This document shows, one piece after another, positions 31,237 to 34,162 of a stretch of DNA of 34,162 bases (position 1 is the first letter of the stretch; each line of letters starts with the position of its first letter). The position numbers and the translations under genes were made by a program. The notes below the pieces were generated by a model, which saw nothing but the letters and a program-made list of their open reading frames with translations, searched no databases and was not told where the DNA came from. This DNA comes from Candidatus Hydrogenedentota bacterium (GTDB taxonomy: Bacteria; Hydrogenedentota; Hydrogenedentia; Hydrogenedentales; CAITNO01). Where the stretch lies: positions 1 through 34,162 of the forward strand of contig JAAYBJ010000037.1 in the NCBI GenBank assembly GCA_012730105.1, read 5' to 3'.

Positions 31237-32612
31237 ATGAATATTCCCCTTATCCCCGGACTGAAAGTACTAGGCCGTCCCCCCCCGGCGGTTTCTCGTT
31301 TATGTTGCCATAAACGTCGTTTCCTGGCAGAATATCGTCGGGCCCGCCATGGTCCTTCTGGCCCGTAAAATTGACATGCCTGAATCCTTGGTAGGATTGC
31401 TGCTCTCTTTTATGCCCTTCACTTCGATGCTGCTGCTTTTCACCCTGCCGTTGATTGTGCGTTTGGGCCCCAAGCGGGTGATGCTCTGGGCATGGTTTCT
31501 GCGAAACGTCATCGCGTGCATTGTTTTCCTGATGCCTCTGGCCCTGGCCACTGGTAGCAAGCAGCTTGCCTGGATTGTGCTTGTGGTGGCCATTCTGGGT
31601 TTCTGTATCATGCGGGCCATCGGTGCAGGAGGATGGCTCCCCTGGCTCCACGAAATCGTACCGGTACACCTCCGCGCCACCTATTTCAGCACGGAGACCT
31701 CGATTACCCAGGTAATCAACGTGGGCGTGCTGTTTCTCCAAGCCCGCTTGCTGGCAGTGCCAGACCCCAGCATTAACCGTTTCCTCCTTATTTTTGCCGT
31801 AGGCATATTCATGGGATTTATCAGCCTGCTCTGGATGCGGCGAATTCCCGGCGGAGAGGGCACGCAGGAGTTTGATGCCCATATCGGCCTGCGCGCTTAC
31901 GCGCGCGCGGCCGGAGACCGGCGTTACCTCGTTTTCCTGATGATTACAACGTTTGCCCTGTCCGGCATGGTATGGTTCGGCGCGTCTTACGTGATGTACC
32001 TGCGCGATCATCTGGCCGTACAGGACAGCATGACCATGACCCTGACTTCGCTGGGCGGTTTGGGTATCCTCCTGACGGTCGGCTCCTGGGCCCGGTTTAC
32101 TGAGGTCGGCGGAAGCGGACTTGCCATGGCTAAAACCCTGCTGGGGCACACCATCGCACCGGTGTTGCTGTTCCTTGCCGGTACCGGCCTTCCAGGCCAG
32201 CAGTGGATGGCTGCCTGCCGCAGTAACGCTTGCCTGCATCTTCAGCGCCGCCTTTGGCGTTGCAATTAACCGCGCCATGCTTAACCAGGTGCCGGACCAT
32301 GACCGCATCGGGTATACGGCATTGTGGACCGTTTCCACCTCGCTCGCCCATGGCATCACGCCGGTCCTGGCCGGATTGCTGATCGAATATTTTGATGTTT
32401 GGGGATTTCGAATATGCTTTTTGATGTCCATGGGGTTTACCGTGTCCGGTGCGCTGCTTTGCCTTTTTTTCATCCATGACCTGCATATGGAAGGCAAAGG
32501 ATGGGTATACATGCTGAACCCCTCATTGCCCCTGCGAACCGCGGGCAGGATACTCTGGATTACCTTTGGGTTGCATGAGAGCAACCGCGCAGATACCCCT
32601 ACCGAGCACTGA
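31237..32612 (+). pseudogene. MFS transporter broken by two frameshifts
   Basis: An inner-membrane major facilitator-type protein is spread over three frames. It starts at the ATG at 31237 (MNIPLIPGLKVLGR) and shifts at a run of eight C (31279-31286). Removing one C continues the helix VYVAINVVSWQNIVGPAMVL into the long middle segment ending near 32215. A second one-base shift at about 32211-32217 leads to TLACIFSAAFGVAINRAML and on to the stop at 32612. In all, about 12 hydrophobic helices and a 458-residue protein would result. The C-run suggests a sequencing or polymerase slip; the second site has no homopolymer, so real decay is also possible. Substrate unknown. Confidence 0.75.
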
Positions 32613-32682
32613 TTCCTTCCCTACCGCCTGTGTTCCCAAACCCGCCAGTCGCCGATTTCGATACAGATAGATATTTTGGATC

Positions 32683-32716
32683 AAAAAAAAGCCTTGCGGA
32701 CATGTGTCGCAAGGCT
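32683..32716 (-). terminator. Strong Rho-independent terminator on the minus strand
   Basis: On the minus strand, AGCCTTGCG and CGCAAGGCT form a perfect 9-bp stem (32716-32708 and 32698-32690) with a 9-base loop, followed directly by a run of T (the complement of eight A at 32683-32690). It is the best intrinsic terminator in the window. No protein gene ends there on the minus strand, so it implies a minus-strand RNA from the repeats to its right. On the plus strand, the broken MFS transporter ends 70 bases before it. Confidence 0.85.
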
Positions 32717-32728
32717 ATAACTGCAAAG

Positions 32729-32820
32729 GGTGGAGATGCCGAGAGGGGGGAACTCGACATCTCCGGTGAGGTGTTTTGGCTCTGAGGGGGAACAGAGCGT
32801 TGCAGAGGAAAAACTATAAA
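32729..32820. repeat. Tandem repeat unit 1 (92 bp)
   Basis: This unit is 97% identical to 32829-32920, offset by exactly 100 bases, with three base changes. All three changes fall in the loop of the larger hairpin (32744-32752); stems are unchanged. The spacing is not a multiple of three, so any reading frame through both copies would differ between them, arguing against a coding repeat. Confidence 0.95.
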
Positions 32821-32828
32821 GACTATTA

Positions 32829-32920
32829 GGTGGAGATGCCGAGAGGGGGCGGCTCGACATCTCCGGTGAGGTGTTTTGGCTCTGAGGGGGAACAGAGCGT
32901 TGCAGAGGAAAAACTATAAA
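32829..32920. repeat. Tandem repeat unit 2 (92 bp)
   Basis: This is the second copy of the unit at 32729-32820. Its larger hairpin spans 32832-32864 and its smaller hairpin 32879-32898, with loops AGGGGGCGG and AGGGGGAA on the plus strand. Both copies begin on the minus strand with TTTATAGTTTTTCC. Confidence 0.95.
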
Positions 32921-33007
32921 ATACCTGAGGACAAATCCCCATGCCGTTCGCAGGAACAACATTGGCATTACACGTACGTACTTTTCACATCACCTTTCCC
33001 AAAGCAG

Positions 33008-33036
33008 ATTCAATTATCAAATATTACTGTTCACAA
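33008..33036 (-). promoter_or_regulatory. Possible promoter for the minus-strand RNA
   Basis: On the minus strand, TTGTGA (33036-33031) and TTGAAT (33013-33008) are separated by 17 bases, matching the -35 and -10 consensus at four of six positions each. A transcript from here would run through both repeat units to the terminator at 32683. The region is AT-rich, so a chance match is quite possible. Confidence 0.3.
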
Positions 33037-33039
33037 AAA

Positions 33040-33700
33040 AACTTATTGATTCCCCACGTGCGAATTGAGTGGCTGTAATCTTCACATGCAACTACTCACC
33101 ACACAACATCTTCACGTTAACGGGCGTTAGTATAAACTATCAGAAACGTAAAAGCAACCTTTTTTTACTGTACGATTTTCATTTTTTTGAAAGACGTTCT
33201 CAGCCCGTGAATTGTTTATACCTTTGGATAAATAGAGGCACAATCGCAGTATTCATTTAAGTTTTCAATAGACACGTATTGTCCATCGCATAATACACAA
33301 AATATCCTGAAAGTTTGTTTATCTTATTGCGAATCATTATTTTTGACAAAACTGCATCTTTCCGAGCAGGCTTATAAGAGACTTTACACAGCATTTCAGA
33401 TCTTACATTTCTTGGCAGAAAAAATGTTATCTGGATTACAAATGATTCGCACGCTTACGGGGGTAAATAAAACCCGGACCCTGACCGTTTATTTTTTTCT
33501 GTCCTCTTCAATGCAAGGTGCTTCAGGCTCCTCCCCCCCAAGCGCGCTGTGATACCCGCATACCAAAATGTGCGCTACGTACGTTTGGAACCTGTCCCCA
33601 GACGCACACTTCGCCCGCAACAAACCACTTCGCCTTTCATCACAAAGAACCCCACGCACTTTTATTCCGATTTTATGAACCCAGTCAAAATATGCCATCC
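33040..33700. other. AT-rich stretch without a recognisable gene
   Basis: About 660 bases of low-GC sequence, unlike the flanking coding regions. Short open frames occur on both strands, but none has a clear ribosome site, recognisable motif or coding-like codon use. I see no tRNA, array or long repeat here. Confidence 0.6.
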
Positions 33701-33857: not shown

Positions 33858-34162
33858 CCCGTATCAACGTATTTTTCGTTTCACTATAAACAACCTTAAG
33901 CCGCGTCATTCCGGTTTTTTCGCGGTCTTTGGCCAGCATCGAAGAACGGTACTGTACAACACGAAAAAGACCGGAATCCAGATTCGTCCCGCTGCAATGA
34001 ATGCCCATTTCCCATCTTAAAAAATACATCTGACATGGGCTGTTCCTCACGTGCGCATCCAAAGATAGATTCCGGTCTTTTCGCGGCCTGGCACACGCTT
34101 CGATACAACTTTTTTTTCCACCGCGAAAAACCGGAATGACGTGTTGTTTTGGGGTCTTTGAG
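33858..34162. repeat. Interspersed repeat, copy 2 (REP/BIME-like), cut at the window edge
   Basis: This copy aligns to 10116-10421 in the same orientation with scattered substitutions and one single-base gap. The inverted ends CGTCATTCCGG (33904) and CCGGAATGACG (ending 34141) and both internal hairpins (33904-33976 and 34067-34141) are kept. It ends exactly at the window boundary, so its true right limit is not visible. Confidence 0.88.

Follow-up and report, generated by a model that had tools for sequence, protein, structure and literature searches.

A tandem array on the minus strand

The window, that is, the whole stretch of 34,162 nt from a Candidatus Hydrogenedentota bacterium that was analysed, carries towards one end a tandem repeat that a sequence-only reading had taken for a functional small RNA, perhaps one that pairs with G-rich ribosome-binding sites. 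Is this array indeed an RNA gene, and how would its product act? Within 32683-32920, the minus strand has two units of 92 nt whose starts are 100 nt apart and which share 97% identity, and an intrinsic terminator closes the array:

32829-32920, minus strand: repeat unit 1, which would be transcribed first (match to covariance model R1 at 32832-32908, E 1.1e-17)
32879-32898, minus strand: hairpin A of unit 1, loop UUCCCCCU (fold; six of six helix 1 pairs covary)
32865-32873, minus strand: conserved single-stranded linker CACCUCACC of unit 1 (same in 35 of 35 units of alignment A1)
32832-32864, minus strand: hairpin B of unit 1, 12-bp stem, CCCCCU in the loop (fold and covariation)
32729-32820, minus strand: repeat unit 2 (R1 match at 32732-32808, E 5.7e-17)
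32779-32798, minus strand: hairpin A of unit 2 (fold and covariation)
32765-32773, minus strand: linker CACCUCACC of unit 2 (identity in alignment A1)
32732-32764, minus strand: hairpin B of unit 2 (fold and covariation)
32683-32717, minus strand: intrinsic terminator, 9-bp stem and U-run (sequence and folds; relatives have a terminator in the same place)

In each unit, CCUCUGC is followed by hairpin A and then by hairpin B with its CCCCCU loop; the single strand between the two hairpins is GCACCUCACC, and the linker ends in CACCUCACC. On folding, the minus strand reaches -83 kcal/mol (z = -8.7 versus shuffles, compared with z = -4.0 for the plus strand); in each unit, hairpin A has a stem of 6 bp and a C5 loop, and hairpin B a stem of 12 bp and C5-C6 within its loop. 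In the terminator, 32690-32698 pairs with 32709-32717, and a U-run follows on the minus strand only; the element does not appear in a simple terminator scan, where the maximum loop is 8 nt and its own measures 10 nt. Sequence and folds thus agree with the initial description of two near-identical 92-nt units 100 nt apart, of two hairpins with C-run loops in each, of a 9-bp terminator with a T-run beyond them, and of a U-G pair present on the minus strand alone. The three differences between the units are likewise confined to a loop, which is that of hairpin B. As for the extent first proposed, 32683-33001, it rightly takes in array and terminator, yet the feature does not stop at 33001, as the putative transcription unit would reach to a promoter-like site at 33129-33157. 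The initial description makes no mention of the conserved linker, and the spread of the RNA through the phylum, its linkage to a cohesin gene, the promoter-like site and the boxA also go beyond it.

A structured RNA family in Hydrogenedentota

The repeat is not a product of chance, since both the unit and its pairing are conserved across the phylum. When 77 distinct units were aligned by fitting to the covariance model, with which the independent MAFFT alignment A1 agrees, 98.8% of cells proved to be standard pairs and 12 of 17 pairs showed two-sided changes. There are 102 cells with two-sided changes, whereas shuffling leaves 16 and sliding of the partners no more than 14; relatives hence carry the compensatory, not the stem-breaking, changes that a covariance analysis had been proposed to look for. 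Furthermore, 32 cells are G-U and only 2 are A-C on the minus strand, which indicates that this is the transcribed RNA strand. Covariation, wobble pairs and terminator together support the notion of a structured minus-strand non-coding RNA with a terminator of its own.

While the stems drift, two different single-stranded motifs are nearly invariant phylum-wide. The unpaired bases are rich in C (55%) and poor in G (9%), and the linker CACCUCACC is missing in family f7 alone and altered in a few others. At the f7 loci (L094, L136, L137 and L138), hairpin B and its CCCCCU loop are kept where the linker is lost or altered. Arrays comprise up to seven units, single-unit loci being common, and identity between units is 0.91 within arrays versus 0.80 between arrays, a likeness that points to recent duplication or homogenisation.

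A 95-aa ORF runs across the array on the minus strand, and one could therefore suppose that there is no RNA but a coding repeat, or else a DNA repeat or a plus-strand feature. Unit spacings of 86-116, mostly 94-103, are, however, mostly not multiples of three, so that the frame of this ORF is not kept, and it has no Pfam match; coding was rejected on these grounds. Given also the covariation of the stems and the wobble pairs in favour of the minus strand, an explanation without RNA is hardly credible. A CRISPR array was rejected as well, because whole 92-nt units stand head to tail and the unit structure is conserved between species.

With covariance model R1, built on one unit, the family was found in 40 of 68 Hydrogenedentota genomes (E <= 0.001), most absences falling in family f5, and a DNA search recovered the repeat in 27 of 40 relatives. 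Among 84,980 species represented by a single genome each, a degenerate pattern scan found 27 stretches. The label Candidatus Hydrogenedentes or Hydrogenedentota applies to 23 of these; three of the other four probably belong to genomes of the phylum as well, and one lies in a metagenome-assembled genome labelled Chloroflexi. This last locus (L051:7366-7439, minus strand) has one good unit of 63 bits with no cohesin ORF before it, and may reflect transfer, mis-binning or mislabelling. In genus g7, a second, diverged single-unit locus (L142:4368-4454 and L143:1330-1413, both minus strand) lies apart from the cohesin gene; the loop of its hairpin B is enlarged (ACCCTCCCCCTCCC), and it has a terminator of its own. 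The exact hairpin pattern had no match in the genome and viral collections, nor a looser one in viral contigs, nor the repeat in plasmid and phage BLAST; hence there is no sign of a mobile element.

A comparison with Rfam had also been suggested. Neither the window nor any of eight relatives has a match at gathering level, and at E 10 no family lies above its cut-off in 32600-33100; the RNA is absent from that catalogue. The best sub-threshold matches are two alphaproteobacterial sRNAs, suhB/mmgR (RF00519; 24.5 bits, cut-off 41) and ar7 (RF02342; 20.7 bits, cut-off 60), and membership of either was rejected. Our literature search found no paper on small RNAs of Hydrogenedentes or Hydrogenedentota. 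Judged from sequence comparison, this is a real and previously uncatalogued family of non-coding RNA that extends across an uncultured phylum.

Promoter-like site and boxA

Two further elements lie upstream of unit 1:

33129-33157, minus strand: predicted sigma70-type promoter, TTGCTT at 33152-33157, 17-nt spacer, TATACT at 33129-33134 (start predicted near 33122)
33007-33025, minus strand: boxA-like antitermination element AATATTTGATAATTGAATC (14.9 bits on the rRNA boxA matrix)

The hexamers TTGCTT and TATACT are the same in a congeneric genome (G001), and all nine stand-alone loci of the family have a promoter-like match 100-402 nt upstream of the first unit, as compared with 22 of 278 control windows; a stricter consensus promoter scan does not list the site at 33129-33157. 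The RNA of the window probably has its own promoter.

The boxA matrix was built from 11 rRNA boxA sites, and none of 763 control windows reaches 14 bits. Of the cohesin-linked loci in the window's family, which are described below, all seven score 17-26, whereas the 13 cohesin genes that lack the RNA all stay at or below 0. Given that the element is absent from the latter and kept at stand-alone RNAs, we rejected that boxA is a by-product of cohesin coding. The rRNA spacer boxA of the window's genus is TATTTGACAGTTGAATG, to which the window's TATTTGATAATTGAATC is close, and at the seven cohesin-linked loci as well as in the window the leader matches the organism's own rRNA boxA. The full form, G(C/T)TCTTTGACAATTGAA, also precedes the 16S and 23S rRNA genes of the phylum, where position and sequence are as expected from the E. 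coli boxA consensus GYTCTTTAANA (PMC5725501). A(A/G)TTGAA stands upstream of the first unit at 29 of 40 loci, versus 7% of control windows. Outside the window's family, mostly just this 3' half (ARTTGAA) is conserved and many loci score low on the full matrix, so that boxA function there is doubtful. Within the family, we take the upstream element to be of boxA type, strong in the cohesin-linked relatives and slightly diverged in the window.

Its resemblance to boxA-led rRNA operons and CRISPR arrays lies in an rRNA-operon boxA sequence that precedes a repetitive untranslated RNA; it differs in that this RNA is neither rRNA nor CRISPR and that the boxA of cohesin-linked loci belongs to a coding sequence, in its 3' portion. 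A boxA placed ahead of a CRISPR array is reported to promote the expression of distal spacers (Stringer et al. as cited in PMC7862264). Fitting that use, an rRNA-type boxA TCTTTGACAGTTGAA was seen in genome G035 (L200, G035:C70, ~1500-2144) ~50 nt ahead of a CRISPR array whose 29-nt repeats GTTTTCCCCACACCCGTGGGGATGGACCG recur every 61 nt. At L189 (G016:C508), two boxA-like TCTTTGACAGTTGAA sites lie 889 nt apart on one strand in a stretch without rRNA.

Linkage to a cohesin gene

In most families, the RNA lies in a 3'UTR, starting 2-77 nt past the stop codon of an ORF of 335-456 aa. This ORF encodes a cohesin domain (PF00963; four of five tested lie above the curated cut-off) and ends in a C-terminal hydrophobic stretch and a basic tail, as in a membrane protein. 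At the cohesin-linked loci, an extra hairpin often precedes the first unit, in many with GAGGAU..AUCCUC, and at many single-unit loci a U-run follows immediately after hairpin B. The position directly 3' of the stop codon and this U-run would suit a cis element, namely a terminator or stability structure of the cohesin mRNA that has no function in trans.

In the window's genus (G000-G003) and in g3 and g6, however, a profile of the cohesin protein found nothing at E <= 1e-10, and all of these carry the RNA, at stand-alone loci that mostly have two to four tandem units. Conversely, many f5 genomes have the cohesin gene and lack the RNA; the two are thus separable, and the persistence of the RNA where the gene is absent implies a role of its own. 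That the RNA is kept, amplified and preceded by a promoter-like site in these genera speaks against the cis element, as do the conserved unpaired motifs, which a terminator would not need. As a general explanation we regard it as improbable: a cis role is possible in the cohesin-linked families and unlikely to be the whole role at stand-alone loci.

Mode of action

Hfq was detected in none of the 68 Hydrogenedentota genomes by a search that was positive in 5 of 14 control genomes, and an Hfq-dependent sRNA was rejected for this reason. CACCUC has the sequence of the 16S tail GGAUCACCUCC, and the C loops could pair with AGGGGG, as would be fitting for a general anti-Shine-Dalgarno RNA that acts on G-rich ribosome-binding sites. 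The Shine-Dalgarno sequence of the host, derived from 346 upstream regions of the same genome, is however AAAGGA/AAGGAG (AAAGGAG), and these regions contain AGGGGG twice and GAGGTG once. Moreover, across 17 family genomes, complements of linker and loops are not commoner before ATG than scrambled controls (232 versus 223 for GTGAGGTG, 744 versus 994 for AGGGGGCG). The target tests covered ~0.54 Mb of the window's genome in addition to the pattern counts. The general pairing mode suggested at the outset hence fails and is very unlikely, while a few specific targets are possible. Towards 16S and 23S rRNA, complementarity amounts to scattered 6- to 8-mers, whose positions are not conserved between the rRNAs examined.

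The explanation that we favour, if tentatively and at less than even confidence, is a boxA-protected, Hfq-independent, trans-acting RNA with C-rich loops, like 6C or sX13. The minus strand would give rise to a non-coding RNA of ~440 nt, from a unit of promoter, boxA leader, tandem two-hairpin stretches and intrinsic terminator. The boxA would recruit the NusB-S10 antitermination complex, by which RNA polymerase and Rho would be kept from stopping in an untranslated stretch rich in C and in hairpins. The finished RNA would then work in trans without Hfq, using the C-rich loops and the CACCUCACC linkers as binding sites, of which tandem copies provide more; its partners would most likely be G-rich stretches in a limited set of RNAs, as for 6C/B11 and sX13. 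We favour this reading because Hfq was not found in the phylum's genomes and because C-loop RNAs that act without Hfq are known, namely sX13 and 6C/B11.

The main rival, to which we give nearly equal weight although we hold it for the less probable of the two, is a protein sponge, in which the C-rich single strands titrate an RNA-binding protein (Rho, for example, or one with a KH domain), the dose depending on the size of the array. CsrB is a sponge that titrates CsrA. The near-invariance of two unrelated unpaired motifs over drifting stems and the amplification to seven homogenised units are explained by a sponge about as well as by pairing; C-rich, G-poor unpaired regions and the lack of an mRNA target signal would also suit it, and if Rho were the protein, boxA would keep the transcript immune. 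No candidate protein was found, however, C-loop RNAs of known function use base pairing, and single-unit loci are common. A variant that unites several of these elements appears rather unlikely. It would be a new class of RNA, a multi-unit sponge of C motifs, antiterminated through boxA, that arose from the 3'UTR of the cohesin mRNA, became a stand-alone gene in one clade, and perhaps titrates Rho or a KH-domain protein while being itself Rho-immune.

Comparison with known RNAs

With 6C RNA, or mycobacterial B11, which we take to be Rfam family RF01066, the favoured trans-acting RNA shares hairpins with C-rich loops and hosts that lack Hfq; it differs in its phylum, its conserved linker, its tandem amplification and its boxA. 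At E values up to 10, the model RF01066 did not match anywhere in 32600-33100, and at gathering level it matched neither the window nor the eight relatives. The C4-C6 runs occur in two hairpins per unit, and many relatives have ACGCCCGU-like hairpin-A loops; for B11, pairing of its two C-rich loops with a G6 tract has been put to the test (PMC10470900). sX13 of Xanthomonas represses through C-rich loops, independently of Hfq and on targets with G-rich motifs (PMC3771888), and its C-loop hairpins are matched here, in hosts without detectable Hfq. sX13 is gammaproteobacterial, with three single hairpins, no tandem units and no conserved linker; the likeness drawn here is one of description. Many repeated hairpins in one terminator-ended RNA also recall CsrB/RsmZ, yet the loops on the supported strand are C runs and not GGA, and assignment to that class was rejected.

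The kind of RNA, C-loop and Hfq-independent, is known; what is new, as far as our searches reach, is its combination with tandem amplification, a conserved CACCUCACC linker and a boxA of rRNA type. It provides a conserved, covarying RNA family in a phylum without small RNAs in the literature searched and in hosts without detectable Hfq. A C-loop RNA is here joined to the antitermination signal of rRNA operons, and boxA control would then cover one more non-coding RNA. The family further allows an mRNA 3'UTR element to be compared with a stand-alone RNA gene inside one bacterial family.

Other features of the window

A gene that resembles a membrane transporter (weak MFS match) occupies 31349-32612 on the plus strand. 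Its open frames, 31349-32269 and 32121-32612, differ and overlap, and either a frameshift or an error of assembly would account for the split. At 33904-34141, near the contig end, CGTCATTCCGGTTTTT and GATTCCGGTCTTTT each occur in inverted copies, which suggest a short dispersed repeat element.
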